Shown: in pieces, positions 13,250 through 64,000 of the stretch | Numbering within the stretch: the first letter of the stretch is position 1 | Layout of the letters: every line of letters begins with the position of its first letter | Source: Phallus indusiatus | Lineage: Eukaryota; Basidiomycota; Agaricomycetes; Phallales; Phallaceae | Direction of reading: 5' to 3' | Assembly (NCBI GenBank): GCA_027605045.1 | Contig: JAQFWX010000047.1 | Span: forward strand, 1 to 64,000 | Length of the DNA stretch: 64,000 nucleotides | The notes under the pieces: generated by a model | Told to the model about the DNA's origin: nothing | The model's input: the letters and a program-made list of their open reading frames with translations, nothing else | The model's database searches: none | Position numbers and translations under genes: made by a program

Positions 13250-13445
13250 TTCAACCGTTACAGCCTGGAAAATATATACCCCAAGATATCTAATATACAT
13301 CGATGTTATGCAACAACAACCAAAAAAGGAACCAGTTGGGAAAAAAGACAGTGTTATATGAAGTACATTCTGGTTTTGATTGGTAGGATTATGTACCTAC
13401 AGAGCGAAAGAAACAAAAAAACATAACTTATCCATGAGAAGTTCG

Positions 13446-15088: not shown

Positions 15089-15392
15089 GTTCGTTTTGAA
15101 AATTGACGAGCTGCTAGGAAATCAACGGTTGATAGTTCAAAGTTCTCAGTGCCATTAAGTATATGGCGGCGACTGTGACATGGTGACAGACGTCGCGTGA
15201 CGACTTGATGATCCTGAACCGGAACTTCGTCCAAAAAAAGTTTTTCTCAACCAATTATCCTATTTTCGGTGGGTTTGTTCGGTTATGTTCGCAAAATTAA
15301 GTAGGTAATTTCAAACTGCTAAATTCTCTTCAAACTTACAACCAAGTTGACACTAAGTTAGGAATGAATAATACATAAATTTTAAATAAATG
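15089..15392. other. Intergenic spacer between F-box gene and first HD1 gene
   Basis: This 304-base stretch holds the promoter of the minus-strand F-box gene and the 3' end of the minus-strand HD1 gene. It is AT-rich on the right side (15350-15390), compatible with a polyadenylation zone. No further structure is seen. Confidence 0.4.
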
Positions 15393-40914: not shown

Positions 40915-41206
40915 TGTAACGGTTCCGCTATGACCAGCGGACTACTATTACCCATAGTACATATTAGTATATATATACAATTGCATGCAGACGATCGTCG
41001 TCTGCACAAGTACCTAGTATTATGTAATGTACATAGGCGCCGTCACACCAGTAAATACCGCGTAACGGTAAAGGCGCCGGCAGCCTTTCTTACCTGCACT
41101 TGCAAATATACAGCTTTATACTGTTTGTTGTGAGTCCGTAAGAACCGGGCTAATCGTAAACTGTAACGAAACGTTACATCTTTTTTAACACCTAAACGGC
41201 GTTACA
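40915..41206 (+). repeat. 5' LTR of Element 1
   Basis: The LTR begins TGTAACGG and ends GGCGTTACA, giving seven-base inverted ends TGTAACG/CGTTACA around the canonical TG...CA. An internal copy of the same inverted pair, TGTAACG-AAA-CGTTACA, lies at 41162-41178. Further hairpins are visible (for example CCGCT/AGCGG and GCAGACGA/TCGTCTGC). The right end is inferred from the inverted terminus because the second LTR is outside the window. I see no typical initiator-tRNA primer site immediately after it. Confidence 0.65.
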
Positions 41207-41255
41207 ATTTCCAAAATACGCCAATCGTATTTGCTAGTTTATAGTGAGAGAGGAT

Positions 41256-44200: not shown

Positions 44201-47200
44201 CAGTATGATGACGCTGAACAAGGTCAAGACACCGCGGAAGCAGCGGACTACGGGGGAGGGGACCACTATGAGTGGGACGAGAACGAAGACGCAGCAGGCG
44301 CATACATGATGGTGATAACCGAAGACCACGGTTATGATGAAAGAAGACTACTTGTTATCAAACAAGGCTCGTCCACCATTGGGACGATTAAGTCACAGGA
44401 AGAACCCCTGTATGACCACACGATGAGACCTAAGTCAAGGGCTCCAAAGCGTGATAAAGAATCAATAAAACCTCTAGAGGGTTACTGGCTCGTAAACGGC
44501 CAATTAGCGCATTGTTTGATTGACAGTGGATGTCAAGGCATGATAATGTCACCATCATTCTCGCTCACGACTGGAGCGAAGACATTCAAACTGGATAAGC
44601 CAGTATCACTGCAGCTCGCAGTGAAAGGAAGTAAGTCCGTAATACAGTACGGAACGTATACCCGAATAGAATTTGGGGATATTAGTGTATTAGAATACTT
44701 TGATATAGTCAACATTGACTACTACGACGTCATAATTGGCGTACCATTCCTGAAAAGGTATGACATCTGCCTGGATTTTGGCAACGGAATAATCACCCGG
44801 GATGGAGGAGTAATCACTCCAGTGGAACGGTTCACTGAAATACCTAACACCACGGACGAGCCCACCGAGTTAAGTGAAAGCTTAGCCATAGCATCAGCAC
44901 GCCCCATAACCACTACGTCTAACGCAGTAGCAGTGAGACGGAAGATCCGAGTACCGGAACTTAAGGATGAGAACCTACCCGCGCTACGCGAGTACTGGAA
45001 GGAGGAGTACAACGACTTATTCGGGCCAGTGCCGAATAGACTCCCTCCATTTAGGGATGTAAATCATCATATCCCATTAATAGAACCTAACAAGGTTATC
45101 CGGTACAGACTACCGAAGTGCCCAGACGCCCTCAAGCCACTGCTGGCTGAAAAAATAGAGCGCTACACGCAAGCAGGTTGGTGGGAACCGACTGTCGCAC
45201 AGCAAGCCATCCCCATGCTATGCCTGTTTAAAAAGGCATTATCAGGACTACGCACGGTATTTGACCTGCGTCAGCAGAATGATAATACGTTGAAAGACGT
45301 GACCCCGTTTCCAGACCAGGAGACCATTCGCCAAGACGTGGCGAGACACAAGTATAGGTCGAAAATTGACCTAACGGAAGCTTACGAGCAAGTCAGAATT
45401 GCTCCGGAAGACGTGGACAAGACCACGTTCTCGACGATATATGGCACGTTTAAAAGCCATGTTATGCAACAAGGTGATTGCAACGCGCCTTCGACATTCC
45501 AGAGATTGATGACCCATATATTCCGGGACCACATCGGAAGAAACATACACTCGTACATCGACGACGTGTTCATCTACTCAATGACGATCCAACAACACCA
45601 GGAACATCTGGAGATTGCCTTCTCGAGATTGAGGAAGGAACAACTTTACCTAAGTCAGAAGAAAGTTGACTTATACTCCAAACGATTGGAGTGCCTAGGA
45701 CACATCATCGACGACGATGGTATCCACCCAGATATGGATAAAATGGATAAAATTCGCGATTGGAGAACCCCACGTACGTTCAACGACGTTCAGAAGTTCT
45801 TAGGACTGGTGCAATACGTTGCCGCCTACCTTCCGGGAGTCGCTACTTACACTTCCCCATTGTCGGGATGTACCCACAACAACAGGCAATTTGAGTGGAC
45901 ACCGGCACTAGAACGCTGTTTCAACGCAATCAAAGCGTTGACGAAGAACGCCCCAGTTCTTAAACCTATCAATCCTGATAGCAACGAGCCAATTTGGCTT
46001 GTAACCGATGGATCCAAGTGTGGCGTCGGTGCGTACTATGGTCAAGGCGCAAGGTGGCAAACCTGCAGACCCGCAGGGTTTATGTCTAAGAAATTTACTC
46101 CGGCACAATACAACTACCGGACTCATGAGCACGAGCTCATTGCAGTACTTGAAGCACTGAATAAGTGGGAAGACAAACTACTAGGTCGTAAATTCACCCT
46201 AGTAACGGACAACGAGGCCTTGAAACACTTCAAGACACAGCCCCGTATGTCGCCTAGACAGGCGAGATGGTACGAGTATCTCTCTCGTTTCGACTACGAA
46301 ACGATTCACATCAAAGGTGAGACCAATACGGTCGCAGATGGACTCTCGAGATACTTCGAGGATGACCTACCTAACGAGATACACCCACCTGAGAACTACG
46401 TCAACATCGACGTGAAACTAGATCCAACAGGGGATCAGCTACCTCCTGAAAGGAAAAGCGAACTCAGAATCAGTGCGGCGAGACGCATTAACACTCGGGC
46501 GAAAGCTAGAGTCCAACAACAGACGGCTGGACAAGCATCCATTGAACAACGATCAGCGTCCATCGAAGAAGCGGATACAGACGACGAAGATGTACTGGCA
46601 GTCACAGCACAACATAGCGGTAAAACGCTTAAAGCCAAAATCGAAGGCTTTGAAGGATTAGCTGATCTGATAAAGAGCGGCTATAAGGACGACACAACAC
46701 TGAAGAAAGTGTTAGAAAACCCTGATGCATACAAAGGGTTTGGGATGAAAAACCAGCTACTATACACGAAGAATCAGTTTTCCCGTGACGTGGTTTGCAT
46801 ACCCCATCACTTATTTTACCAGGGGAGGAAGCTGGTAGAGATCATAATTAGTGAAGCACACGAAATTGTGGGACACTTTGGACGCTATAAAACGTCGCAA
46901 TACATTAGACAAGTGTATTGGTGGAGAACGATGGCAGAGGACATCGAAGAATACTGCAAATCGTGCGGTAAATGTCAAACGAATAAGGATGACAATAGAC
47001 ATCCTAGCGGTCTACTGAAGACGCTACCCATTCCCAATAAACCATGGGAATCAGTCGGAATGGACTTTATAGGCCCATTACCAGTATCGAAAGGACACGA
47101 CTTCTTACTAGTCATAATTGACAGATTAACGTCAATGGTGAGACTCATGCCCACCACCACGAAGCTAACTGCGAAAAGCGCAGCACACCTGTACTTCGAA

Positions 47201-48157
47201 GGTGTAGTTAGGCATCATGGCGTGCCAGCTTCTATCGTCAGTGATAGAGATACCAGATTCACCGCGAAATTCTGGAAAGAACTACAGCGACTAATAGGGA
47301 CAAAACTCCTCATGTCCACTTCATTCCATCCACAGACGGATGGAGCAACAGAGCGGGCGAACCGCTCCATAGGACAAGTATTACGTTCTATAATAGATAA
47401 TGACCAAAAGGATTGGGCTGAACGTATCCCGATGGCGGAATTCGCACTGAACAGTAGCACGAGTGAAACGACTAAGTTCACGCCATTCGAACTTAACTAC
47501 GGATACACCCCTGCACTAGGGCGACAGCTCAACACCGACACCAAGTTCAATGGTGTGAAGCAATTCGCATTACAAGCGAAATGGAATCTTATGGCCGCAC
47601 ACGATGCCATAATCGCGAGTCGCGTGAAACAAACCATGCACGCGAACACTCACAGACGAGATGCGCCTGTCTATAAAGAGGGTGACCTCGTGTACCTTTC
47701 TACGAAGAACATATCTCTACCAAAGGGTAGATCCAGTAAGTTGGTACCGCGTTACGTCGGTCCTTACAAAGTATTGTCAGTCAAAGACAATATTAACGTC
47801 AAACTCGACTTGCCTGACGAGTTGAAGAAGCGTAGGATAAATCCAATATTCCACGTGGACTTAGTGAAACCACATATCGCCAATGATGACGATAGATTTC
47901 CACGTCGTGAGTCATTAACGGCGTACGACTTTGGACAACCGGACAATGCCGAATGGCATGTAGATGAACTACTAGCCCATCGCTGGACTGGGTCTAAAGA
48001 CACGGACATCGAGTTCCTAGTGCAATGGACGCTAGGTGATACGACCTGGGAGCCGTACGAACACTGCAAAGACTTGCAGGCATTGGATGAGTATCTCCAA
48101 TTACGCGGGGTTACCCAATTAGGGAAATTGCCGCGTCTCCGCACGACGCGTAAATGA
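41256..48157 (+). CDS. Element 1 gag-pol polyprotein, interrupted by a solo LTR
   Basis: If the insertion 43169-43564 and one target copy (43565-43569) are left out, 41256-43168 plus 43570-48157 sum to 6501 bases, an open frame of 2166 residues. In order: basic N-terminus, long charged gag, capsid-like region, zinc knuckle CYECGQTGHLRPQC (44032-44073), aspartic protease with LIDSGCQG (about 44514), reverse transcriptase with YIDDVF (about 45553), RNase H with VTDGSKCGVGAYYG (about 46000), integrase HHCC (H near 46860, CKSCGKC) and DDE core (MDFIGPL; IVSDRDTRF), then a chromodomain-like end (EFLVQWTLGDTTWEPY). Gag and pol share one frame. It would have been functional before the solo-LTR insertion; the insertion now introduces stops. 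Confidence 0.9.
43169..43564 (+). mobile_element. Solo LTR of the Element 3 family
   Basis: The sequence from TGTCAGGG to CCCTAACA is 396 bases and matches the LTRs of Element 3 in reverse complement with about 20 differences. It is flanked by the perfect 5-base target duplication GAACT (43164-43168 and 43565-43569). No internal sequence remains, so it arose by recombination between the two LTRs of a full element. It includes two direct copies of a 24-base unit, TCTTAGGATCCCCTCCCTCT being its core, near 43471 and 43521. Confidence 0.95.
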
Positions 48158-48296
48158 GGATCTGCAAGCAGATCTGCCCCGTGCCCCCGGCGGCACAGCA
48201 GCCACGAGAAAATCCTACTCGGGCGCTACTCTGATACAAGAGTAAATAAATACTCTTTCTTACGACCCCGTCTCAGCCACCTGAGCACCGTCAACG

Positions 48297-49593
48297 ATGT
48301 CTGCAGAACCTTCACGACCTACCTCTTCATCTACGAAGCCCTCGACCCGCAAGGGACGATTTGACGATATCAAGCAAGCGTTGCTTGAAGCACAAAAAGA
48401 ATGGAGTATGGATTCCATGCCTGGCTGCGTAGCCATCACCCACGAAAGTGGGAAATGTACCCACTGCGATGAGTATATCTCGCACATTAGTACCGCTGCA
48501 AGCAAGCGTACCATTGTTCTTGACGAGAAAGACGTCAAAGAGTGCCTACTCGAGGCATTCCCGTTCCTGCAAAAAGAGTGGGATGATTTACGAAAGCGCC
48601 TCGAAGACGCTAACGACTACGCCGACCAGACCGTCCAAGAACTCAAGGACGTTGAGAGACGAGAGGACGACCTTCGAGATCGTATACGGGAACTCGAGGA
48701 CAAGTTGAAGCAAGCCCCACAGGCAGCATCGCCTGTGTCATCTAGGAAACGACCTCGGTCAGAGGCCAAGGGCCCCACGAATCATGGGCCCGTAGGATTC
48801 GACGCGTACGACGACGACGACGACGATGATCTAGACGACCACGATTGGGCGGACTCCTACAATGACGAGTCGGTACTCGACTCCAACGGTCAACCCGTTC
48901 CTCCCCATTCTGGGGACGATTTCGGCCTAATGGACAGGCTGGACCCTGAAGAGGAGTCATTATTGTCTCGGCGACAACTCGCTGAGAAAGTCCTCGCTGA
49001 GTTCCCAGGAACTCCCCGTATCTCCAACCAGGCCAAGTACCACGATACGTGGCCCGCTTTATGCAAGGCCACGACCCCACAGCGTCTCGAGCAGGGAAAA
49101 CCCCTGTACCTGGGCCAGTTCCCGACCCACTCGCGTGGTACATGATGTGTCCACTGGATGATCCCTCATTCGTACTCCAGGGGAAGCAGATCTGGAAGAA
49201 ACCACCCATATTGGACACACCTCAAAAAGTTGCAATGCACGCGCGCATTAGACTTGCCTGGGATGTAGGCATGATGTTCATCAATAGAAAGAAGAAAGAG
49301 CGAGACTACGCTCGCCTCACTATCGGGGAGCGCCCCGAAGCTTTTCCATACCCAACAGAAGGGCAAATGGACCTAGAAACGGGTCGCCTCTACGAGACGT
49401 GGTATAAGGACCCCGCCTCCGTACCCTTTTATATAAGGGTTGAACCATCGGGATCGCTGAATATCAGCGATGTTGAAGTCGTAGCGTGGCTTCGAAAAAT
49501 ATTCCTGAATCGGGAAACAAGGAAGACTGTATTCCCCATTGTAGCGGAGATATGTACCGAGCCTGGGCTATCCACCTGGCTCAACGCCGCTGG
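48297..49593 (+). pseudogene. Element 1 third ORF (downstream of pol), frameshifted and truncated
   Basis: An ATG at 48297, 140 bases after pol, opens an ORF whose protein starts with a Ser/Thr-rich segment. A helical domain with the spacing C-x4-H-x4-C-x2-C-x5-H (GCVAITH, KCTHCDEYISH) follows, then a long coiled coil (WDDLRKRLEDANDYADQTV and onward), an acidic run (AYDDDDDDDLDDHDW) and a C-terminal domain with PDPLAWYMMCPLDDPSF. A one-base frameshift near 49050-49060 separates the last domain from the rest. The ORF is cut by the LTR of Element 2 at 49594. Element 2 carries a homologue in the same place, so this is a real gene of the family. Its position is that of env, but I see no signal peptide or membrane segment. 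Confidence 0.75.
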
Positions 49594-49944
49594 TGTAACG
49601 GATCCACCGCATGCGGTGGATTGAGTATATGCCACTTAGGCATATGCAGAGGGCTTCGCCCTCTGCAGTAGTTACTATTACTTACTCTAATAACAGAGGC
49701 GCTTAACGCCTCTGGCTCGCTGCGGCGCGGCGAGCCATTATGTAATAACTATACATTAGTAGTAGCTACGCGCGTGCTGATTCAGCACGCGCAACTTGTT
49801 TTACTCCACAAAGAAAATACAGCACTTTGGTCTGTTACTTGTGGCGTGAAACTACAGCGTGATATAAACTGTGTACCGCAAGCGGTACACTATAAAAAGT
49901 AACGAAACGTTACATCTTTTTTAACACCAAAGGCGTTAAAAACA
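49594..49944 (+). repeat. 5' LTR of Element 2, built of consecutive hairpins
   Basis: It begins TGTAACGGATCC, like the LTR of Element 1, and shares with it the motif TAACGAAACGTTACATC and a TTTTTTAACACC tract. The right end (about 49944) is a guess, since no second LTR is in view. Perfect inverted repeats follow one another: 49603-49620, 49627-49645, 49645-49667, 49694-49714, 49714-49736, 49770-49792 (11-base arms around one base) and 49871-49890. Confidence 0.65.
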
Positions 49945-49999
49945 ACCCGCCGCTGTATTAAGCAAGCGAAATTAACCCTTCCTATTACAGGAGGATTCA

Positions 50000-52900
50000 A
50001 TGGCTCCTACTACCAGGAGTCAGAGTGCACCAGATCGTGGTACACCTGATTCCAATCAGCCTGACCCACCCGGGCCAGTGCAAACCGAAAATCCCGACCC
50101 GTCTAGGGAAGGAACCCTCGAAGGAGAGTCATCCACATGGGAGAGAGTGGATGCATCAACCCAAAATCCCACTCGTCCTGCGTCGCAGACGATGGAACAT
50201 CAGCCCCAACTCGCTGATGAAGAAGATGAGGACGTAAAGTCCGTAGCATCTGGTCGCTCCAGACTTAGCGTCAGGAGCGACAGGTCCATCCGAAGGGACG
50301 AGACAATGAACGCTGTTCACGCATCGTTACTCGATGGCGTGAGGAACGGGAATATGTCCCCGTCAGAACTGCAGAGACTAGCTCGATTAATCGAGAATGT
50401 CAACGCAGGAGTTGAAAACCCTGAGCCAGAGCCTGTTACTACAGGCACTGACAGGGACCAAGTCAGGACAACAGACTTGTCTCCTGAAGCAGAGCCTGCA
50501 CGAGCACGCTCTGACAAAGGAAAAGCAGAGCGGTAGATCCGCCTGCATCAGGTACTGGATCTACTCGTCCTAGACCAGCAGGGCCGACGAGTCGCCTTGC
50601 ATATCAATTCACAAACCCAGCCCCACAAGCTAGGTTTGTTACACCGACGGGACCGACATATGCCAGTCCGTCACCAGCGACAGCTGGTAATTCCCAATCC
50701 CCGGAGCCTGCACCAACAGGCACCAGACAACGTTCTCAGAACGTTACCCCAGGACCGAGTACGCGTCCTGATAGACCTCCTACTCAAGGAGCTACGGCAT
50801 ATACAGCTCCTAGAAACCCCGGCCCCGAAATAGAGGCTGGCAGAGAAACAGTGAGACGAATGCACCGTTTCACAAGACAACCGCCTCACGAGTCTGACGC
50901 GGTTGGTGACTATATCGATACCGAGATAGCCACGCGACTGGTGAACCAGTCGCGAAATGGAGCACCCCACGAGAGGATGCTGAAGTGGTCGCCCAAGCTG
51001 CCCTCGAATACCAGAGGATAGCAAGGCTACTCTCCGACAGAGCAATCCGTACGCATGCACGGGCTGTGGAGACGGCCACTAATGCGCTCGAGGAAGCTGT
51101 AGCAGGCTCTCTCGAGACTGACACTCCCAACGAGCAGCAAATGCGGATCATCCAAAATAGGATCCGCATCGCGAGGGACGCGCGTATGAACGCGGTCCGC
51201 CATGCTCGTGTGCTTGAAGGTGGCTATAATGCCATCACTGGCGATAGGATCCCATCGCCAGACCCAGCCACAAGCTCAAGTCGTCCAGACGACAGAGCAT
51301 CACCCCTGGCAGACAACTGCCAAGGCAAAGTGCCGAGCCCAATGGGCAGAGGCAAGCATCTGCTAACCCAGCAGAAGCACCACGTATCGATCCATATGAT
51401 GGATACGCTCGTCGACCACAGTATGGCGAGGATCTCCGCGCCACACCGTTCGATGAGGAACGTGTTGAAAGATTTGACCCTTTCAACGACGACGCCCAGT
51501 ACTTGAGGGCGTCATAGCCATGGTTCAAGAAGCCCTGATTGCAAACAGGGATATGATGCCAGGCAACTCGCCCCTTGCGAAAGCAGGGGCGAAGATAGGG
51601 CTCCCGCCCACATATAGCGGCTCGTCCAGAGCCGAGGACTTCGACAACTTTGTGTCGGGTCTGTTACGCTGGCTACGCGTAAACCACCTGCTTGGAGAAG
51701 TCAGCCAAGCAGAGCAACTCTCCTTTCTAGGCATGCGCCTAGAAGGGTTGGCACAAGAGTGGTTCACCCAGAACGTGGAACGAGGTACTCGTCCCATGCA
51801 TGAGTGGACCCTAGTCCCCGCTTTACGGAGACTACACGAACGATTCCTCCCACCCCACTCGAGAAGTGAGGTGGCGATCCAGTTCGAACGCGAACGGCAA
51901 GGATCGCACTCTGTACACGAATACATGAGTGCGTTACTCACGCTAGCCAACAGACTAGCGCACCCTCCTGATGATTATACATTCAGGAGGAGGTTCCTTG
52001 ATGGGCTGAACCACAGCCTCGCCGCTGAAGTAGCATTCAGAGGCGGTAGTCCTGAGCAGATGTCTGCTAAGGAACTACTTGCACTCGCCATCCAAGTAGA
52101 GGAGGCGTTCAAGAAGCGGAGGTCGATAACGGCCTCCCAAGGAAGCACTACCCATCCAACGGGTAGTAGTGGCAGTAGTGGTAGTGGCAGCAGCAGCAGC
52201 CACACCAACTTGGCCAGACAAGCGCATTCAAACAATATGCGCTTGAACCAGAGGAACCACGGTCCCTCTGCACGTCCCCATGAGACGCGAACTAATGGCA
52301 ATTCCCCATTGGGGAATCGCCCCTCGAGCTCATCAAGCTCGAGAAATCATAACTCGCAGCTCGCTAGGACTGCCCCAACTAGTACGAACAATCGCACTAG
52401 CACTACCCCTCCCACGTGTTTCAACTGTGGGCAGGTGGGACATTACAGAAATGCGTGCCCCAGACTGAGACAGGTACGAGCCAATGTGGGTCGTATCGAA
52501 GAGGTTGAAGAGACCTCTGGCGAGACATCGAACGATGCCCCGCAGGAGAACGTGGAAGACCCCACAGCTGAACAAGCTGTGGAGGAAGAGGTGGCCCAAG
52601 ACGAGCCCACCAACGACCCCGTCGAGGACGACGAGGGCATCCAATACCAATGGGACGATGATGACAATGGTCCCAGTGTATACATGCTCCTCACAATTGG
52701 TGACGAGTATGAGGAGCGCAGACTGCACTTCGCAGTCCACAAGTCATCGCCATTGGATGACAATGAGTCCTCGCTCGCTACGAGCAAGGAACCACTCTAT
52801 GACCATACGGCTAGAGTGAGCTCTCGTGCCCCAACACGAGACAGAAACGCATCGAGACCCATTGAGGGTTTCTGGCCAGTTAATGGCCAATTGGCTCACT

Positions 52901-54350
52901 GCCTAGTCGACAGTGGATGCCAGGGGATGATCATGTCCCCTCATTTCTCTCTTGCCACTGGGGCAAGAACCTTCAAGCTCGACAAACCTGTCGTGCTGCA
53001 GCTGGCCGTTAAGGGCAGCAAGTCTTCCATCCAGTATGGAACGTACACCCGAATCCAATTCGGAGGTATCGATGTCCAAGAGTACTTTGACATCGTCAAC
53101 ATCGATCACTATGATGTGATCATTGGCGTCCCATTCCTGAGACGCTACAACATCTGCCTAGATTTCAGCAGAGGTACAATCACCCGCGACGGCGAGGTGA
53201 TTGACACCAATCACCATGTGATTGGACACGCTCCTGAAACAGGAGCGATGGTGCTAGCCAGCACCCAACATTCCAGCTCCTCCGTCCCTGAGATGACGGA
53301 AGAGAATATCCCAGCACTCATCGAGTACTGGAAGAACAAGTACAGTGACCTTTTCGGTCCTGTCCCTTCCCGACTTCCCCCGTTTCGGGAAGTGAATCAT
53401 CAGATTCCTCTTATTGAACCCAATAAGAAGATCCGGTACCACCTTCCCAGGTGCCCGGATGCGCTCAAAGCGCTACTCGCTGAAAAGATTCAGCGATACG
53501 TAGCTGCAGGTTGGTGGGAACCAACTGTAGCTACACAGGCAATCCCTATGCTTTGCCTGCAGAAACGAGCCGTGGTCTTAGCACTACGGACCGTGTTCGA
53601 TCTGCGCCTGCAGAACGAAAACACAGAGAAGGACGTAACGCCCTTCCCTGACCAGGAAACCATCCGCCAGAACGTGGCGAGACACAAATACAGATCAAAG
53701 ATTGATCTGACTGAGGCGTACGAGCAGGTACGCATAGTCCCAGAGGACGTCCACAAGACGACCTTTGCCACCATCTATGGCACTTTCAAGAGCCATGTCA
53801 TGCAGCAAGGAGACTGCAATGCCCCATCGACGTTTCAACGTCTGATGACCCATATCTTTAGGGACTGCATCGGTCGTTCGACGGATGCATACATAGACGA
53901 CGTGTTCGTCTATTCAAACACAATAGATCTGCATCAGCAGCATCTAGAGAACGCCTTCTCGCGTTTGCGAGAGGCACAACTTTACCTGAGTAGTCGTAAA
54001 GTTGACTTATACTCTAAGCGACTGGAGTGCTTAGGCCACATCATTGACGATGATGGCATCCATCCCGATCAAGAGAAGATGGATAAAATACGTGAGTGGA
54101 GAACTCCACGCACGTATAACGATGTCCAGAAATTTCTGGGCCTCGTACAATACGTTGCGGCATACCTACCAGGGGTAGCCGCATACACTACACCACTATC
54201 AGGGTGTACGTACAACAACAGACCGTTCGTATGGACGCCGTTGTTGAACAAGTGCTTTGATTCAATCAAAGCACTCACGCGAAAGGCTCCTATCTTGAAG
54301 CCTATTAACGTGGACGACCCAGATCCAATTTGGGTCGTAACCGACGGCTC
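50000..54350 (+). pseudogene. Element 2 gag-pol, 5' part up to RNase H
   Basis: ATG at 50000 (MAPTTRSQSAPD) opens gag. Gag is broken by a stop or frame change near 50536, another near 50980, and more between about 51300 and 51500. From 51520 the frame is open to 54350: capsid-like region (HPPDDYTFRRRFLDGLNHSL), zinc knuckle CFNCGQVGHYRNAC (52418-52459), protease CLVDSGCQG, reverse transcriptase with YIDDVF at about 53890, and the first residues of RNase H, VVTDGS. At 54351 it is interrupted by Element 3; the frame resumes at 60574. Homology to Element 1 is continuous. Because of the gag damage the copy is defective. Confidence 0.85.
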
Positions 54351-54745
54351 TGTTAGGGCTACTCAGCTCACACTAGAGGGAGGGGATCCTAAGGGAATAT
54401 ATTGGAAAGGGAACTAACTACTCACCTAGAGGGAGGGGATCCTAAGAGAACAAGCTTAGGGACCCTCACTCTAGGTACAGCTACTATATACATAAACGAC
54501 GACGCGGCGTGCGGCCCTGACACAGCTAAGTGCCAGGCGCCCAAGCCGAGCCTAAGCGACGTGACGTCACGGGCATCACGCCGGGTACGAGCGCGCGACG
54601 CGCGCGAGTAGAGAAAGTGAAATAGAAACAGAACAAGGGAACGGAAAGTAAAAGTAAAATACGGGAATGATAAATAAAATAGAAAGGAAATGATGCCGAT
54701 GATAATAAATAAGAAAATGAGAGACGGCGGTAGCGTACCCTGACA
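54351..54745 (-). repeat. 3' LTR of Element 3
   Basis: On the minus strand it reads TGTCAGGG...CCCTAACA and is 395 bases long. It holds a duplicated core TCTTAGGATCCCCTCCCTCT, a CCTGGCAC-type hairpin and a CG-rich GCGCGCGTCGCGCGC segment. It has perfect TG...CA ends and is near-identical to the partner LTR. Confidence 0.95.
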
Positions 54746-54760
54746 CCATCCCCCCTTCAA
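54746..54760 (-). other. Polypurine tract of Element 3
   Basis: A purine run (GAAGGGGGGATGG on the minus strand) sits directly upstream of the 3' LTR, the expected primer for plus-strand DNA synthesis. Confidence 0.75.
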
Positions 54761-57700
54761 CGAGGCGGCGTCCCGACGCCTGTAGCTTCGACTAATGACG
54801 CCTGTAACTTCGAGAAATCGAACCGAGGGCGACGATGGAAAAGAAGGCCATTTATCGAGCGTGGCGCACTCGGATGTTCACGGTGGAACTCCTTAATGAG
54901 ATCAGGGGCTGCAATATTCGACTCGGGTTCCCACTGATCGTGCTCGGGACCGTAGCCTTCCCAACGCACCTTATACTCGAGTCGTCTCCGGAACACGCGA
55001 CTGTCCAAAATCCGTTCCACGACGTAGTGCTCACCATCATCTCTGACCTCCGGAGGGGGGGGGGCCTTGACGCGACGACCCGGGATTGTATCTTCAACCT
55101 TTGGACGCAACTTCCCGACGTGGAACACTGGATGAAGCCTCGACATCGACAGTGGTAAACGCAGCTTGTATGCGTGTGATCCGACCTTGCTGACTATCGG
55201 GAAAGGTCCCAAGTACCGATGCGACAACTTGGCAGAGGGCCTGGTGGTACGGATGTCGCTCGAATCGAGGTATACCTTGTCGCCAACCTTGTATTCAGGT
55301 GCCGGGATGTGCTTCCGATCGTAATACTTGGCCATCTCGTCCTTCGACTTGGCTATGGCGGCCTTGGCTTCCTCTATCGTCGACTCCATACGCGTCTTGA
55401 ACTCGTTGACAGATTCGATCTTCGAGTCGGCAACCTGCGGTTCGAATCCCATGCGAGGATGTCGTCCAGTGTCGAGCTCAAACGGTGTCGCGCGCGTAGC
55501 TGAGTGTACGTGGTTGTTATATGCGAACTCAGCCAGGGGCAGTATCTGGTCCCAGTCGTCCTGGCGCTCAGAGGTGAAAAGTCGAAGGTACTGTTCGACT
55601 TCTGCATTGACGCGCTCTGTCTGACCATCGGTTTGAGGATGATATGCCGTAGAGGGTGCAAGCCGTATGCCAAGGAGCCTAGAAAGCTCCTGTGTGAAGC
55701 GAGACGCGAACTGGGGGCCTCTGTCAGAGATCACCTTCATGGGGAGACCATGGAGCTTCCAGACGTGTTGAAGGTACAGACGGGCTAGACCTGTCGCGTC
55801 AAGTGTCGTGAATGTCGGCACGAAATGAACCCGTTTGGTGAGAGAGTCGACGACAGAGAGGATCGCGTCAAAACCGTTGGATTCTGGCAGCTCTACGATG
55901 AAGTCGACTGAGATGTGTTCCCAGGGTCGACTTGGCACTTCTGTGGGTCGGAGAAGGCCATAGGGAGCATGACGAGATGGTTTCGTACGTAGACACATGT
56001 CGCAGGCCTCTACATAGCGTTGTACATACCTAGAGACACCCGGCCACCAAAAGGTGCGCGAAACGAGCTCGAGAGTCTTGAAACGACCCGGGTGACCACC
56101 GAGTTTGGTGTCGTGGTGCCTGGAAAGGATTTTCCGACGTAGCTCGTCGACGTTTGGCACGTAAACCTTGCCGCGATAATAGAGGAGGTCCTGGTCTTCA
56201 AACCATTCCGACGAGTGAGCTGAACGACCACCTAGTGCACGAAGTGTTGCAACGGCTTTGGAAACACTATCTTCGACCTTGCCTTCCCGATTGGCCTTGC
56301 GAATCTGGCGTAGCAGGTCCTCCTCCTCCCCTTTAAGACGGAATGTTTGCAGAGCATTGATTGCAAACATTTCGGGTCGGATTAGAGTGACGCCACGATT
56401 ATCGTCCTTTCCCGAGCCATGATCTGGGCGCCGGGATAGGCCATCAGGTTTACCCATCGACTTACCCGGTATATGCTGCAGAGTAAAGTCGAATCGTGAG
56501 AGATATACTGACCATCTAGCTTGACGACGATTGAGGTTACGCGCGGACATGAAATACTCGAGATTCTTGTGATCAGTCCGTATGTCGATAGGGTGAGACG
56601 CGCCTTCGAGAAAGTGTCGCCATTCCTCTAAAGATCGTATGATAGCGAGCATCTCCTTGTCGTGAATCTCGTAGTTGCGTTCGACAGGGCTAAGGGCCTT
56701 CGAGAAGAACGCAACTGGGTGCCATTTATCATCCTCGTTCGACAACTGTGAGAGAACCGCGCCTGTTGCAAAGTCGGAGCTGTCTGCTTCAACCCGGTAA
56801 GGATTAGCGGGGTTGGGAATGAGAAGAATGGGGGCAGAGGTGATCGACGACTTCAGAGTATCGAAAGCATGCTGACAAGTGTCGGACCAGACGAAGGGCG
56901 TATCTTTCTTGGTTAGCCCGAACATGGGATTGGCAATACGCGCGAAATCCTTGATAAACCGACGGTAGAAGTTGGCGAAGCCCAAGAAGGACTGAACCTC
57001 AGTGACATTCTTCGGGACAGGCCAGTCTCTGACACCCGAGACTTTTGCGGGATCCATCTCTACGGTGTTCTCGGAAATGACGACACCTAGGTACTCGATT
57101 TTAGTCCGACAGAACTCGCACTTCTCCGCCTTGAGATACAGCTTGTGCTCGCGGAGACGTTCGAGAACGCGTCGTGTCACCCTGTCGTGCTGTTCTCGAT
57201 CTCGAGTGTAAATGAGAATGTCGTCGATATAGACGGCAACGACACCTTCCGAGATCATGTCTTCAAAGATCTCGTTCATCATCGTCTGGAAGGTGGCAGG
57301 ACTGTTAGTGAGACCAAAGAACATCACCAAGGGCTCGAAGAGGCCACGATTGGTGCGGAAAGCAGCCTTCCACTCATCTCCTTCCTTTATCCGTACGTTG
57401 TTGTAACCCCAGCGCACGTCCAGCTTGGTAAAGTACCGGGCACCTTGCAGTTTGTTGATGAGTTCCGAGATCAGAGGCAGCGGGTAACGATTCTTGATTG
57501 TCATGGCATTCAACGCACGATAGTCTTGAATAAGGCGAAGAGAGCCATCTTTCTTCTTAATGAAGAATACCGGGGACGCCATGGGCGACTTGGAGGGCCG
57601 GATTCGTCCAGACGCAAGGTTTTCTTCCAGAAACGCATCTAACTCGGCCTGTTCGTTAGGTGACAGCGGGTAGATCTTGCAAGACTTGGGCTCAGAACCT

Positions 57701-58701
57701 GGCACAAGTTCTATCGGGTGATCCCACTTCTTCGACTGCGGCAACGAATCGAATGACTCCTTCGAGAAAATGTCGGCAAAGTCATGGAACCTTTCTGGCA
57801 CGATATCCCGAAAGCCCTTGGGTGCTGGTGCGTCTGCGTTGTTGGCGTGGGCCTGAGCCAGTCGCTGGGAGATGGTCTCGGTGGCATATATGCGGTGAGT
57901 GTCGGGCTCGTCGGGTAGCATTGATATCGCGAACAGTCGATCACCCTCTTCAATCTCAGACTCGACATCGACCAGGTCTGGTATGTCAGGATCATCGGCC
58001 TCAGTGTTGTCGAGCTCTGGTAGAGGTGCGCGTCGGATCTGTTGGAACGCGCGCTTAGAGAGCTTACCCGCTGGCCAGCGTGGAGCACAAGACCGACAAC
58101 TGGGGCTGCAGCGCATGAACTCTACTTGACCAGTTGTGTAGTCTATGACGGGATTGTGAGCCTTGAACCACGGCAGCCCAAATAGGACGGGATACTTGAG
58201 CGAGGTAACGGCGAACAAGGTGCGTTCAGAGTGATCCCGAAATCGAACAACCAGGTCGACGACGTGGGTGATAGAGCCAGCATGGTTGGGCGTACCATCG
58301 ACATTAAACACGGGAATGGGTTTAGTAAGACGTACGGAGGGAAGCCGATGTTTCTCGACAAAGTCGCGGTCGAGGAACATACCGCTAGCTCCAGTGTCCA
58401 GCATGGCCTTGCTGTGCAGCAGGGCTCCAGTGTCAACACTCTGTAGTTCCACCGGGATCTCTAGCTTCTGCGTGCCAGCGGTAGCTGCGAGTCGGTATTC
58501 CTTTGGCAATGCGCGACGTTGAGAAGGCGACAGCATACATGGAGTTGAAACAGAGCGTGTAGCAGGTGGAGACGATTCTTCGGGTTTAGCAGGGGATGCA
58601 GCAGGGGTAGTTAGATTCGAATCAGAAGTGTCATTTTGTTCGCGATCTATATACAAAATGTCGAATCTATTAGATGTCGGCAACGAGGGTGCATCTATCA
58701 C
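54757..58701 (-). CDS. Element 3 Pol polyprotein with chromodomain
   Basis: An open frame of about 1314 codons runs leftward and stops at 54757. Domains in order: aspartic protease (MLDTGASGMFLD, about residues 100-111), reverse transcriptase with YIDDILIY (about 490), RNase H (VEADSSDFATGAVLS), integrase zinc domain (HHDTKLGGHPGRF with CDMCLRTK), DDE core (SVDFIVELPESNGFD; VISDRGPQFASRF; then YHPQTDGQTERVN), and a C-terminal chromodomain (VERILDSRVFRRRLEYKVRW, then EGYGPEHDQWEPESNI). The chromodomain marks it as a chromovirus, a clade whose integrases can be guided to modified chromatin. The frame is -1 relative to gag; no ATG is obvious, so expression probably needs frameshifting or reinitiation at the GTGA overlap. 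Confidence 0.93.
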   Translation of the reverse strand: MIDAPSLPTSNRFDILYIDREQNDTSDSNLTTPAASPAKPEESSPPATRSVSTPCMLSPSQRRALPKEYRLAATAGTQKLEIPVELQSVDTGALLHSKAMLDTGASGMFLDRDFVEKHRLPSVRLTKPIPVFNVDGTPNHAGSITHVVDLVVRFRDHSERTLFAVTSLKYPVLFGLPWFKAHNPVIDYTTGQVEFMRCSPSCRSCAPRWPAGKLSKRAFQQIRRAPLPELDNTEADDPDIPDLVDVESEIEEGDRLFAISMLPDEPDTHRIYATETISQRLAQAHANNADAPAPKGFRDIVPERFHDFADIFSKESFDSLPQSKKWDHPIELVPGSEPKSCKIYPLSPNEQAELDAFLEENLASGRIRPSKSPMASPVFFIKKKDGSLRLIQDYRALNAMTIKNRYPLPLISELINKLQGARYFTKLDVRWGYNNVRIKEGDEWKAAFRTNRGLFEPLVMFFGLTNSPATFQTMMNEIFEDMISEGVVAVYIDDILIYTRDREQHDRVTRRVLERLREHKLYLKAEKCEFCRTKIEYLGVVISENTVEMDPAKVSGVRDWPVPKNVTEVQSFLGFANFYRRFIKDFARIANPMFGLTKKDTPFVWSDTCQHAFDTLKSSITSAPILLIPNPANPYRVEADSSDFATGAVLSQLSNEDDKWHPVAFFSKALSPVERNYEIHDKEMLAIIRSLEEWRHFLEGASHPIDIRTDHKNLEYFMSARNLNRRQARWSVYLSRFDFTLQHIPGKSMGKPDGLSRRPDHGSGKDDNRGVTLIRPEMFAINALQTFRLKGEEEDLLRQIRKANREGKVEDSVSKAVATLRALGGRSAHSSEWFEDQDLLYYRGKVYVPNVDELRRKILSRHHDTKLGGHPGRFKTLELVSRTFWWPGVSRYVQRYVEACDMCLRTKPSRHAPYGLLRPTEVPSRPWEHISVDFIVELPESNGFDAILSVVDSLTKRVHFVPTFTTLDATGLARLYLQHVWKLHGLPMKVISDRGPQFASRFTQELSRLLGIRLAPSTAYHPQTDGQTERVNAEVEQYLRLFTSERQDDWDQILPLAEFAYNNHVHSATRATPFELDTGRHPRMGFEPQVADSKIESVNEFKTRMESTIEEAKAAIAKSKDEMAKYYDRKHIPAPEYKVGDKVYLDSSDIRTTRPSAKLSHRYLGPFPIVSKVGSHAYKLRLPLSMSRLHPVFHVGKLRPKVEDTIPGRRVKAPPPPEVRDDGEHYVVERILDSRVFRRRLEYKVRWEGYGPEHDQWEPESNIAAPDLIKEFHREHPSAPRSINGLLFHRRPRFDFSKLQASLVEATGVGTPPR

Positions 58702-60008
58702 TCGTCGCCGTTTTGAAAATCCTCTACCTCTGCTGCAGCTACAGTCTCCCCCTCTGTCAGAGCAGAGTCACCACGTGTCTGGGCTTCTATCGCGTCTTTC
58801 TGGGTCAGCAGATGCGCGATACTGTCGTCTAACTCCTCGGGCTGGAGATACCGGATGTCATATGCACGAGGGCATTCGCGAGCCCAATGGCCTGCTGCTC
58901 CACAGCGACGACACCTGGTTGATTCTAGGCCAGCACGTCGACGGGCAGCGTCAACGTCCATCGGATCATGCCTAACCTGGGGTGCAGGAGCAGGAGCCGC
59001 AGGTCTTGGAGGCAACGTGGGCACGATTTGAGATGCTGGCCTGGGAGGTGGATAGGGAGGAGCCTGATAGGAAGGGGCAGGGGGCCTCCTCTGGATCTGG
59101 AGGGTCTGATACGACGGAAAAGGGTTGGGACGAGGTCGATTAATGGGGACAGCTGCGGGATTTGTCTGGGCCGTTCCAGAGCCCACGAGTCGACGGCGAG
59201 CAGCGGTGAAGGCCTCGTTGGCACGCCTGTCCATGTCAAACATGCGTGCTTGCCTGATCCAGCCTTCGTAGTCGTGGAGTGCGGGTCGGTCTTTCATCGT
59301 CGCTACCAGAGATGCAATTGCCGGGTCTAAACCATTACGAAAGTACGTGTTAATGGCGAGTCCTTCCGTAAAGCCAGCGTGCTCAATGAGTATGTGGAAG
59401 GCGTCTACATACTCTTCCACAGTCCTGTTGCCTTGGACATAGCGGTTGGAGTAGAGGGCGTTGATGGCATCTTCTTGCTCGGATTGTGGAAAGAAATCTG
59501 CCTTGAATCTTTCCCGGAAGGCATCCCAGTCAGCAAAGGGCTTCTCTCCTCTTTGATACCTTTTCAGCATAGATTCGCTGAAGGTAAGGGCACGACCTTC
59601 ATTCATGTACGACATCGCCCAGCCGATCTTGAGTTCATCAGTCTCGAAGTCGCGACTGCATATACTCATGTAGAACTCGACAGTGTTCCAAAAGGCGCGA
59701 CCCTTGGAGCGATCTCCGTCGAACGAAGGAGGTACAGCAGGTCGGGTATTTCGGGAAGAGCGTGAACTGGCTTGATGCTCAGGAGCCGGTGGTTGTCCAG
59801 ACGAGGACGCGTCGCCCACAGGGGGGTTTTGGGTTGGAGCAGCTCTAGCCGCGTCTCGGATGCTCTGCAGCACCTCAATCATCTGTGAGGCCTGGGATTC
59901 CTGTCTAGCCATGCGGGCATCCATTTCCGCGAACTGCCGCATAATAATAGTCGCCACATCGTTGAGGGTGACGAGTGGGGGTGCAGAGGGTGGAGGAGAA
60001 GAGTCCAT
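58698..60008 (-). CDS. Element 3 Gag
   Basis: 436 codons from ATG 60008-60006 to TGA 58700-58698. A coiled-coil N-terminus (VATIIMRQFAEMDARMARQE) precedes a capsid domain of the retrotransposon-gag family (AFWNTVEFYMSICSRDFETD; WDAFRERFKADFFPQSEQ; EYVDAFHILIEHAGF), a proline-rich stretch, and a zinc knuckle CRRCGAAGHWARECPR near residue 366. It ends in an acidic tail. The stop overlaps the first possible pol codons by four bases (GTGA). No damage is seen. Confidence 0.92.
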   Translation of the reverse strand: MDSSPPPSAPPLVTLNDVATIIMRQFAEMDARMARQESQASQMIEVLQSIRDAARAAPTQNPPVGDASSSGQPPAPEHQASSRSSRNTRPAVPPSFDGDRSKGRAFWNTVEFYMSICSRDFETDELKIGWAMSYMNEGRALTFSESMLKRYQRGEKPFADWDAFRERFKADFFPQSEQEDAINALYSNRYVQGNRTVEEYVDAFHILIEHAGFTEGLAINTYFRNGLDPAIASLVATMKDRPALHDYEGWIRQARMFDMDRRANEAFTAARRRLVGSGTAQTNPAAVPINRPRPNPFPSYQTLQIQRRPPAPSYQAPPYPPPRPASQIVPTLPPRPAAPAPAPQVRHDPMDVDAARRRAGLESTRCRRCGAAGHWARECPRAYDIRYLQPEELDDSIAHLLTQKDAIEAQTRGDSALTEGETVAAAEVEDFQNGDE

Positions 60009-60172
60009 GAGAGAGAGAAAGGAAAATGGGGTCTTTGAGATGGAGCAGAGGGGTCGGTTATAGACGGGACTCGAGGGAAAAATACGACACTGCGATAGTC
60101 GGTGTCGAGCGCGATTTTTCGATAGCGAGTGTCGATAAAAACGGCCAGTCTGCGAGTAGAAGCTTGTTCTAC

Positions 60173-60568
60173 TGTTAGGGCTACTCAGCTCACACTAGAG
60201 GGAGGGGATCCTAAGGGAATATATTGGAAAGGGAACTAACTACTCACCTAGAGGGAGGGGATCCTAAGAGAACAAGCTTAGGGACCCTCACTCTAGGTAC
60301 AGCTACTATATACATAAAACGACGACGCGGCGTGCGGCCCTGACACAGCTAAGTGCCAGGCGCCCAAGCCGAGCCTAAGCGACGTGACGTCACGGGCATC
60401 ACGCCGGGTACGAGCGCGCGACGCGCGCGAGTAGAGAAAGTGAAATAGAAACAGAACAAGGGAACGGAAAGTAAAAGTAAAATACGGGAATGATAAATAA
60501 AATAGAAAGGAAATGATGCCGATGATAATAAATAAGAAAATGAGAGACGGCGGTAGCGTACCCTGACA
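60173..60568 (-). repeat. 5' LTR of Element 3
   Basis: A 396-base LTR that in minus orientation precedes gag. It is identical to the 3' LTR except for one additional A. The sequence just inside it, GTAGAA-CAAGC-TTCTAC, forms a small hairpin where the primer-binding site is expected; I cannot assign a tRNA. Confidence 0.93.
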
Positions 60569-60573
60569 GGCTC

Positions 60574-62790
60574 TAAATGTGGCGTCGGTGCCTATTATGG
60601 GCAAGGGCCTACATGGCAAACATGTAGGCCAGCAGGGTTTCTCTCGAAGAAGTTCACCCCTGCTCAGTACAACTACCGCACCCATGAGCATGAGCTCATC
60701 GCGGTACTTGAAGCCTTCCTTAAGTGGGAAGACAAACTACTAGGGCGTAGATTCACCCTAGTAACGGACAACGAGGCCATGGTCCACTTCAAGACCCAGC
60801 CTCGCATGTCACCGCGCCAAGCACGGTGGTATGAATACCTGTCTCGTTTTGATTACGAGACGATTCATGTCAAGGGCGTCACTAACAATGTCGCCGATGG
60901 CCTCTCTCGTTATTACGAAGAGAACACTCCGGATGAGGTTCACCCTCCGGAGGTATACGTCAACGCTGACGTTAGACTTGATCCCGAAGGGGATCATCTT
61001 CCCATCGAAAGAAGGGATGAAGTGAGAGTGAACGTTATTACACGTTCACGAGTACGAGAGGAACCTCGAGTTGAAGGTCCCTCAAATACTACACCTTCTG
61101 ATATTACAGAAGCGCAATCCGATGAGGATATACTTGCTCTAAGTGCAGAGCAAGACAGCAAGCTTCTTAAAGCCAAAATTGAGGGCTTTGCTGAATTTAC
61201 CTCGCTGATACAGCAAGGTTATCACAAGGACCCAGTATTTAAGCTGGTTCTTGCCAACCCAAACGCTCACAAGGCGTTTGGAATTAAAAATCAACTGATC
61301 TTTACCAAGAATCAGTTCCTCCGCGATGTATTATGCGTCCCCATAACGCATTTTACAAGGGGAGGAGGATCACTGAGATTATAATCAGTGAGGCCCACCA
61401 AATTGTTGGGCACTTTGGACGTTACAAAACGTCTCAGTACGTTAGACAAGCGTACTGGTGGAAATCGATGATTGAAGACATCGATACGTTCTGCAGATCC
61501 TGCGGAACGTGCCAGACCAACAAAGGGGAGAATAATCACCCCAGTGGTCTGTTAAAACAACTCCCGATTCCCAATAAACCTTGGGAATCGATTGGAATGG
61601 ACTTCGTCGGTCCATTACCCGTTTCAAACGGCCACGACTTCCTATTCGTCGTGATTGACAGACTGACCTCTATGGTTCGTCTGATGCCAACCACCACCAA
61701 GCTGACCGCCAAGGGCACAGCCTGGTTATACCTCAGTGAAGTCGTAAGACTCCACGGTGTCCCTGACTCAATCGTGAGTGACAGGGATGCACGATTCACT
61801 GCCAAGTTTTGGCAGGAACTGCAACGCCTAATGGGGACACGATTGCTCATGTCCACGGCGTTCCATCCGCAAACGGATGGATCTACCGAGTGAGCCAATC
61901 GCTCAATTGGTCAAATACTTCGTTCCGTCATACAGAACGATCAAAAAGATTGGGCCGAAAGGATCCCAATGGTGGAGTTTGCTATTAATAGCAGCACCAG
62001 CGAAACCACTGGTTTCGCGCCGTTTGAACTCAACTACGGCTACCTTCCCAGTTTGGGAAGGAAAATTGAGACGAACACCAAATTCAAAGGTGTTCAACAC
62101 TTTGCTCAACAGGCAAAGTGGAACCTCATGATAGCGCATGACGCTATCATAGCCAATCGCGTTAAACAGGCTCACTACGCGAACAACTCACGGCGCGATG
62201 CACCGGAGTACAAAGAGGGTGACCTCGTCTATCTGTCGACGAGGAATCTCAACCTCCCCAAGGGGAGAGTTAAGAAGTTGATCCCGCGTTATGTGGGACC
62301 ATACAAAATATTGTCCGTTAAAGACAATATCACAGTAAAACTTGAGCTCTCTGAAGAGCTCAAGCAACGTCGCATAAATCCCATATTTCACGTGGATTTG
62401 ATTAAACCTCACATCGCCAACGACGATGAGAGATTTCCACGCCGCGATACACTCACGGCGTATGACTTTGGACAGCCAGACGATGCTGAATGGCACGTCG
62501 AGGAACTCCTAGCTCATCGCTGGAGTGGAACTCGCGAGAAAGATCTCGAGTTCCTAGTCCAGTGGACCCTTGGGGATACCACTTGGGAACCTTACAGTAA
62601 CTGTAAGGACTTGCAAGCTCTAGACGAGTACTTGCAATTACGAGGCGTAAACGAGCCTCGGCAGCTGCCACGACTATCCAATCACGGAGAGTCGCGGACC
62701 AACAACAAGCGCCCAGATCCCACTCGGGATCTGCTTGAAGATCCCACCCACAGGGATCCACTGGCACTTCACTGCTACGCGGTGAGGTAA
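60574..62790 (+). pseudogene. Element 2 pol, 3' part: RNase H, integrase, chromo-like end
   Basis: Continues the frame broken at 54350: RNase H (CGVGAYYGQGP; KFTPAQYNYRTHEHELIAVL), then integrase. A one-base frameshift near 61340 (run of C in GTCCCCAT) moves the integrase zinc domain (HFGRYKTSQYVRQAYWW; CRSCGTCQTNK) into another frame. A TGA at 61891-61893 replaces an arginine codon that is CGG in Element 1, consistent with a C-to-T change at a CGA. The DDE core and the C-terminal EFLVQWTLGDTTWEPY chromo-like segment remain. Perfect hairpins occur about every 25-30 bases here. Confidence 0.88.
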
Positions 62791-62869
62791 TTTTCACTTG
62801 GGCGCTCCATGAGGCCGCCCAAGTATATAACCCAAAAGTCCGTTCACGGTCTTTTCTCCTCACACCCCC

Positions 62870-63959
62870 ATGCCTGACAGCAAGGGAAAACAACGCGAAC
62901 GATCACGCTCGCGGTCGCCTACGCCGCAACCTGTTAGTAGGTTCAAAAAGCAGAGGCTCAACTGGCCCTGCAAAGGTCCGAATGGACCTTAGACGCGATG
63001 GACGGATGCATATCCGTCTATCATAACAATGATAGTTGCACTGCGTGCAACGACTTTGCCAGTCACCTGGCAGGCCCCGCTGGCAGCGGGGCAATCATCC
63101 TTGACCATGATATGGTCAAGCAGGCCGTCTACAAGGCCTTTCCCTTCATAAAGAGGGAGTACTATCATCTAGACGAACGTCTAGAAGAAGCTGAAAAGGA
63201 CGTCAAGTCCTTGACAGACCACCTCGACGATGCGAATCGTCATATCTGCGAGCTGAAAGCTCGCATTGCTGAACTTGAACGTTCAGCGTCGACGGCAGGC
63301 CCGTCGACTACCCCATCGACCTCCAAAAGCGGTCGAGAGACCAGGCCGATAAAGCGCCTGAACCATCCCAGGCAGCCCCTTTGCCTGATATCTTCAACGA
63401 CATGTCGTCTGACGACGACATGGAAGACATAGTCGATGATAATGACTATGATGACGACGCCTCCATCGCGTCGTCCACCAAACACAAGCCTCAGCGTACC
63501 TACGCTGATGCAACCAAGGCATCGGGCTCTCGCGATGCTGCCCCGGTTTCTCCAAGGAAACCCTCTGGTCCGTATCCACGGACCAAGCCAGGATGGGACT
63601 CTAATAGGGACCCATGGCCCTTCTTCGTCAAGGGTTTCGACCCCACTGTTAGTGGGGATCATTCTCTGGTGCCTGGCACCCCCAATCCTACTGCATGGTA
63701 TAACACCTGCAGCCTCGACGAACCATTGTTCGTCGAGATTGGAACCCGGGTTTGGACCGACCCCCCGGTGTTCACGTACCCCGATGACAGAGGGGTTCAC
63801 ATGCGTATTTCATACGCATGGACTCGTTGGCGCAGATCCATGAAGGAGCGCCGCCTGGCGAGGAAAACAGCCAAGCTTGAAGCTATGGAGGCTGCCGCCA
63901 ACCGTCCATCGGTGGTGTTTATCTCGGGAGAGTTAATCCACCCGAGATCAAGTATTTAA
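62870..63959 (+). pseudogene. Element 2 third ORF, frameshifted
   Basis: Homologue of the Element 1 third ORF. An ATG at 62870 starts a basic RERSRSRSPTPQP segment; the frame changes near 62940 and again near 63375. The conserved parts are the C-x4-H-x4-C-x2-C-x5-H motif (GCISVYH, SCTACNDFASH), AFPFIKREY, a coiled coil (LDERLEEAEKDVKSLTDHL), an acidic run (DMEDIVDDNDYDDDAS) and the C-terminal domain PNPTAWYNTCSLDEPLF ending at 63959. The Element 1 and 2 proteins agree in domain order and motif spacing although their sequences differ widely, so the gene has been under selection. Function unknown. Confidence 0.75.
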
Positions 63960-64000
63960 TCAATACTTGGAATGCGGACCCTAACCAGGTCCTCCCTACA

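Follow-up and report, generated by a model that had tools for sequence, protein, structure and literature searches.

An earlier note on this DNA had described a retroelement whose coding sequence is tiled with short perfect hairpins, and the question that the locus raises is whether this pattern goes beyond chance and, if it does, whether it reflects selected nucleic-acid structure or a mutational process such as template switching. It was addressed in the window, the whole stretch of 64,000 nucleotides analysed here (C148:1-64000), and in a genome search covering 67.2 Mb in 206 contigs.

Three Ty3/gypsy elements are nested at the right end of the window, Element 3 (E3) lying in Element 2 (E2) and E2 in Element 1 (E1), so that E1 is split by E2 and E2 in turn by E3 (Table 1). 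The two E1 LTRs, 40915-41183 and 65573-65840, are 99.6% alike on alignment and those of E2 are 99.1% alike over 324 bases, indicating that both insertions are young. Both elements fit the ends of Ty3/gypsy chromoviruses, with TGTAACG/CGTTACA LTRs and 5-bp target duplications present as direct repeats on both sides (CTTTG for E1, GCTGG for E2). Pfam matches in E2 cover gag, zinc knuckle, protease, RT, RNase H, integrase and chromodomain, in the order protease-RT-RNase H-integrase, the chromodomain match (PF00385) at the integrase end (61894-62787) being marginal at 25.7 bits against a cut-off of 25.1. The reading frame of the E2 part at 60569..62790 breaks near 61.3 kb and meets a stop at 61891. 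A repeat search also placed the solo LTR of an E3-like element inside E1, at about 43164-43571. Elsewhere in the window, a nicotianamine synthase match (PF03059, 165 bits) lies at 2855-3739, and Peptidase M3 and Homeobox_KN genes lie within about 5 kb (11901-17140), a pair that we take to resemble the MIP-homeodomain mating-type region of mushroom-forming fungi and that would place the host among the agaricomycetes; the nested retroelements are about 24 kb from this putative mating-type region.

Table 1 Features of the nested retroelements (window positions unless a contig is named)
Feature	Position	Strand	Basis or detail
Element 1 (E1), Ty3/gypsy chromodomain element	40915..64000 in window, on to C148:65836	+	LTR alignment, direct repeat
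E1 5' LTR, TGTAACG...CGTTACA	40915..41178	+	hairpins 40986-41006 (arm 9), 41162-41178 (arm 7)
E1 gag part	41238..43160	+	codon shuffles
E1 gag end-pol	43583..48157	+	codon shuffles
E1 third ORF (48285-49145) and overlapping -1 frame ORF (from 49001), cut by E2	48285..49593	+	
Element 2 (E2), hairpin-rich Ty3/gypsy chromodomain element	49594..64000, on to C148:65003	+	
E2 5' LTR, 7 hairpins	49594..49914	+	inverted repeats, LTR comparison
LTR hairpin, 3-nt loop inverted in some copies	49645..49667	+	25 LTRs compared
E2 gag end, protease, RT	51478..54339	+	Pfam; codon shuffles
Element 3 (E3), Ty3/gypsy, nested in E2	54351..60568	-	direct repeat GGCTC on both sides
E2 RNase H, integrase, chromodomain	60569..62790	+	three open pieces
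Five hairpins of the earlier note	62000..62150	+	exact inverted repeats
E2 third ORF (62941-63432) and overlapping -1 frame ORF (63279-63959)	62941..63959	+	

Five perfect inverted repeats had been read in the pol codons of E2, and all five are exact and lie where they were reported: 62000-62018 (arm 9, loop 1), 62043-62061 (arm 8, loop 3), 62073-62095 (arm 7, loop 9), 62098-62120 (arm 8, loop 7) and 62128-62150, whose arm is 9 rather than 8 (loop 5). The first of these occurs in exactly this form at 52 places in the 67-Mb genome. When hairpins with arms of at least 7 and loops of 0-12 were counted in 1-kb bins, each with 15 dinucleotide shuffles, the shuffles averaged 0.3-1.2 hairpins per bin, roughly the chance rate that had been assumed. 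Against a chance level of about 0.7, E2 holds 7-19 such hairpins per kb, roughly tenfold or more above chance, the seven bins wholly within it having 7, 8, 9, 12, 12, 14 and 19, with the densest coding part in the third-ORF region (19 in 63001-64000). E1 bins contain 4-6 at 43-49 kb and 1-2 at 41-43 kb (gag), host DNA contains 36 across 40 bins (0.9 per kb), and each of the five bins wholly inside E3 contains 0-2.

The excess was equally apparent against codon shuffles (60 per piece, loops 3-12) that keep protein, codon use and dinucleotides. At arms of at least 7, the E2 gag-pol piece at 51478..54339 has 29 hairpins against 2.4 (19 against 0.7 at arms of at least 8), the three open pieces of 60569..62790 have 8, 7 and 12 against 0.8, 1.4 and 0.9, the last of them being 61894-62790, and the third ORF has 11 against 1.0, while three gag pieces have 3, 3 and 4 against 0.5, 0.15 and 0.8, so that the pattern does run through gag, pol and the third ORF. 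E1 carries the trait more weakly and with shorter arms of 6-7: its pol has 51 against 9.8 at arms of at least 6, 17 against 2.6 at 7 and 1 against 0.7 at 8, and its gag 17 against 3.2 at 6 and 1 against 0.75 at 7. E3, which had shown no such pattern in the parts read for the earlier note, is at chance at arms of at least 7 (pol 3 against 3.0, gag 2 against 0.8) as it is in the bins, and serves as an internal control; at its pol end, two stems with arms of at least 8 were found against 0.2 expected, the count at 7 being at chance. Hairpin density in E1 and E2 is thus higher than in their codon shuffles and in E3, which confirms the excess of short perfect hairpins and shows it to be greater than the earlier note had claimed.

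This excess extends over the whole element and recurs at every E2-type locus tabulated in the genome. All 19 E2 bins lie above their own shuffled mean, from LTR to LTR, and density climbs from 5' to 3' (rho 0.55, p = 0.016, 19 bins; in E1 rho 0.33, p = 0.17). The 321-bp E2 LTR holds seven hairpins with arms of 7-12, those of the 5' copy being 49602-49621 (arm 10), 49627-49645 (7), 49645-49667 (10), 49694-49714 (8), 49713-49737 (8, and 12 in the 3' LTR), 49770-49792 (11) and 49871-49890 (9). When the genome was searched with the integrase end of E2, at least 133 places were found; 132 of 443 candidates were scored, making the copy counts lower bounds. At the pol end and at arms of at least 7, all 37 distinct E2-type loci tabulated, the window included, are rich (7.0-14.0 hairpins per kb), the 17 E1-type entries have 2.4-6.1 and an older E1-like copy has 6.3 per kb. 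Seven of ten distant relatives in the genome are at chance. Two others, L050 and L053, which are near-copies of each other, show a mild excess (z 4.8 and 3.6; 6 against 1.1 and 4 against 0.9 at arms of at least 7) and are perhaps an independent or a fading case. A third, L054, was rejected as a hairpin-rich relative, its hairpins sitting in an inserted unrelated repeat; this repeat of about 570 bp, found in pol genes at L054:950-1527 and L066:231-796 (73% alike), consists of many short inverted repeats of the ACCTG/CGGGT type. A scan of IMG/VR for relatives found none. The hairpin excess is confirmed as element-wide and lineage-specific.

A further trait goes with this lineage. Downstream of pol, E1 and E2 each have a third ORF for which Pfam gave no match above cut-off (identity between the two is 34% over 124 residues), and in a comparison with ten distant relatives (in the range L047-L055, L062, L063) no match was better than E 0.31, indicating that the third ORF accompanies the hairpin-rich elements; its product could be a hairpin-binding protein. 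In both elements an additional ORF in the -1 frame shares about 150 nt with the third ORF; these additional ORFs, from 49001 on in E1 and at 63279-63959 in E2, are alike by eye. This arrangement may represent a conserved overlap or a -1 frameshift.

The dimensions of the stems indicate local structure. Grouped by loop length, E2 (arms of at least 7) has 67 hairpins against 7.7 at loops of 3-12, 10 against 3.0 at 0-2 and 28 against 26.4 at 15-100, while E1 (arms of at least 6) peaks at loops of 4-8 (56 against 7.3) and has 1 against 4.3 at 0-1. With the excess confined to short loops and nil at 15-100, these are compact hairpins and not long-range structure, and the loop window is the one that real hairpins would need. 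Enrichment by arm length is strongest at 8 and above in E2 (arm 8, 32 against 2.5; arm 9, 9 against 0.5) and at 6 and 7 in E1 (56 against 13.0 and 22 against 4.3). No trade-off between the length and the GC content of arms was found in E2 (rho -0.02 and -0.03) and a weak one in E1 (rho -0.22, p = 0.08; rho -0.47, p = 0.05), and stems have a weak preference for codon phase. Regular tiling was rejected, as the gaps between hairpins match random placement. In 150-nt pieces, predicted folding energy exceeds that of codon shuffles by 39.6% in E2, 16.5% in E1 and -2.5% in E3, the same pipeline giving 34.8% for MS2, 27.0% for Qbeta and 15.8% for PP7; by this prediction, the folding of E2 would match that of the RNA phage MS2 in strength.

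Our best reading, to which we would give an even chance, is that the nucleic acid of the E1/E2 lineage is under diffuse selection for local self-pairing during replication. Tolerated changes, synonymous and other, would persist where they create or preserve short stems (about 6-7 bp in E1 and at least 8 bp in E2, with loops of about 3-12 nt) anywhere in the element, LTRs included. Density and not position would be maintained, as in the genome-scale ordered structure of RNA viruses, with template switching probably supplying part of the perfect stems. The earlier note had offered selected RNA structure and template switching as alternatives, and the evidence set out below leans to selection, without singling out RNA as its object; for template switching, one LTR loop is inverted, and arm-by-arm rewriting found no significant support.

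The polarised variants among copies bear on this choice. Selection and template switching are taken to act only during element replication, so a difference is expected between variants shared by three or more copies and singletons, most of which postdate insertion. Polarity was set by the divergent copies L067, L066, L009 and L057; a wrong polarity would shift losses to gains and thereby mimic gains. At arms of at least 7, stem bases are gained in 8 and lost in 14 of the 99 shared E2 variants, compared with 3.0% and 24.5% for random changes of the same spectrum (p = 0.002 for gains, p = 0.008 for losses); the gains exceed their random rate yet are outnumbered by the losses, and may include variants of wrong polarity. 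The 207 singletons, with 9 gains (p = 0.17) and 41 losses (p = 0.07), fit random mutation, and for the small class of variants restricted to two copies the frequency of stem loss is that of random mutation (10/41). In E1 (arms of at least 6), stem loss affects 1 of the 37 shared variants against 16.8% at random (p = 0.009), the singleton count being 8/69. When shared variants and singletons were compared directly, the difference was non-significant (p = 0.13 for gain and loss together, p = 0.08 for loss). Stem-losing variants are thus in modest shortage after replication, which gives moderate support to selection as the cause that we infer.

The stems of E1 and E2 were also compared with each other. 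Among E1 stem pairs, 151/236 are still paired in E2 against 124.6 expected under site-wise substitution, whereas 166/302 E2 stem pairs are also paired in E1 against 155.7 expected, indicating that an older common set has been kept and that many E2 stems are new. Double changes between the two elements occur, for example, in the stems at 61435-61457 and 53691-53709, and E2 stems turn over fast. Selection is favoured because shared variants lose fewer and gain more stems and because E1 stems stay paired in E2. Stem conservation judged from raw variation was set aside, as the count is already lowered by taking the majority or a single copy as the reference for what is a stem; the raw shared variants number 28 at 792 stem sites against 137 at 2639 sites elsewhere in E2, and 2/576 against 57/3008 in E1, and per copy they are uneven, being lower in stems in L067, L009, L044 and L043 and not in L066, L065 and L051. 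Singletons in E2 copies of 60569-64000 are mainly C-to-T and G-to-A changes, 119 of 325 at CpG, as expected from cytosine methylation of transposons.

The strongest alternative, which we regard as possible although on the unlikely side, is mutational: during reverse transcription the nascent strand, on reaching an imperfect inverted repeat, would fold back or change strand and copy one arm onto the other. The repeat would become perfect with no benefit to the element, protein function being the only filter, and the limit to one lineage would be a property of that lineage's enzyme. Described footprints of template switching are loops inverted between perfect arms and compensatory change that occurs at once (PMC8794818). 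The LTR hairpin at 49645-49667 has such a loop: of 25 LTRs compared, 19 have TTC and 4 have its reverse complement GAA, one has AAA and one a partial deletion, and the arms are unchanged in the TTC and GAA forms. An LTR tree from which the loop was left out puts GAA in two groups, one of them within a TTC group (support 0.999), suggesting from the sequences that the loop apparently inverted twice; the second appearance of GAA, although not the first, could also be due to recombination between LTR lineages. The motif C(GAA)G is a very stable DNA mini-hairpin, and the loop forms C(TTC)G and C(GAA)G put it on different strands. Stems that in E2 are strictly Watson-Crick and not optimised for energy, arms of 10-12 in the non-coding LTR, and the absence from E1 of most E2 stems are likewise as copying between arms would have them. 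Other observations speak against it: no clean loop inversion was found in the E2 3' coding half across 36 copies, and changes in 31 E2-only stems show no significant concentration in either arm (mean arm-change difference 1.74 against 1.45 expected, p = 0.11). Variants in at least three copies break a majority-paired base in 27 cases and restore one in a single case, shared double changes are limited to two (stems 62308 and 63246), and gag, which evolves fast, has the fewest hairpins.

The two processes may also act together, a combination that we put forward tentatively and consider rather doubtful. The copying enzyme would write hairpins at near-palindromes and selection would keep them, leaving the RNA or the minus-strand cDNA as a self-armoured chain of 6-9 bp stems that host small RNAs or enzymes could hardly reach, a structural counter-defence carried at synonymous sites and not by a protein.

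Improbable in our view, but of interest for the strand concerned, is that the target of selection or mutation is the single-stranded minus-strand cDNA in place of the RNA, with hairpins protecting the strand of longest single-stranded exposure or being written there. Minus-strand exposure in retroviruses rises from 5' to 3', in the direction of the E2 density gradient, which may instead reflect gag translation. Among E2 stems with one mismatch, counted on the plus strand, A-C occurs 23 times (3.8 expected), G-T 7 times (3.1) and other mismatches 32 times (13.5), so that G-T is not favoured on this strand and the A-C tilt, which is G-T on the minus strand, hints at the latter. This bias is weakly significant, is absent in E1 (A-C 6 against 3.2, G-T 4 against 2.1, other 16 against 8.3) and is also present in RNA phages (A-C 14, G-T 13, other 31, three phages pooled). 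Folding energy showed no strand preference (E2 -1.02, standard error 0.81; E1 -0.72, standard error 0.84). A plus-strand RNA signature through G-U pairs was unsupported, a non-decisive result given that the phage yardsticks do not favour G-U either. With no preference for G-U and an equal folding excess on both strands, RNA is not singled out as the selected molecule. That chance, composition, codon usage or the region should account for the hairpins is scarcely credible, as had been argued for base composition, given the dinucleotide and codon shuffles, an E3 at chance and hairpins at all 37 distinct E2-type loci tabulated across the genome.

If diffuse selection for self-pairing is the cause, its benefit would be that the RNA or the single-stranded minus-strand cDNA is shielded from host attack, for example from targeting by small RNAs. 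RNA-silencing genes are present in the host, RdRP being matched on 9 contigs and Piwi on 6, and shielding from small RNAs is possible; ribosome pausing and RNA packaging are further roles that the earlier note had suggested as possible.

Selected structure would mean that LTR retrotransposons, and not RNA viruses alone, evolve genome-wide ordered structure inside protein-coding genes. A mutational origin would instead make these elements an unusually strong template-switching footprint of a reverse transcriptase, and would caution against reading function into every perfect stem and compensatory change. In either case, E1, E2 and E3, with weak, strong and no tiling in one genome, offer a natural comparison for effects on silencing, RNA decay and reverse transcription, and the many young copies make it testable whether diffuse structure in coding regions means selection.

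Among open-licence literature searched by title and abstract, no description of hairpin-tiled retrotransposon coding sequence was found, and the nearest known systems each share part of the pattern. Genome-scale ordered RNA structure (GORS) of RNA viruses, and the genomes of RNA phages, resemble E2 in a folding energy far above that of codon shuffles along the coding sequence, but these are RNA viruses, whereas E2 is a reverse-transcribed LTR element whose folding is predicted. The phages also have fewer perfect hairpins at arms of at least 7 (MS2 4 against 1.9, Qbeta 12 against 3.2 and PP7 7 against 2.0, compared with 74 against 7.8 in E2), the structure of E2 consisting of short perfect hairpins with no long-range excess at loops of 15-100. 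Yeast Ty3, another Ty3/gypsy element, has structured regions dispersed in its coding RNA, with a well-folded core of about 19% of the genomic RNA (PMC11381356); for Ty3 and Ty1, the available passages of that paper deal with individual probed structures, and an element-wide excess over synonymous shuffles was not found in them. Template-switch mutations share with E2 the perfect stems, compensatory double changes and loop inversion, but in the passages of PMC8794818 at hand they arise in DNA replication and affect rRNA and microRNA genes, while in E2 a whole retroelement with its coding genes is involved. Closest in build are the fungal Ty3/gypsy chromoviruses (Metaviridae), which like E1 and E2 have a gag zinc knuckle, protease, RT, RNase H, integrase, chromodomain and 5-bp duplication, and from which E1 and E2 differ in their third ORF and in the hairpin tiling.
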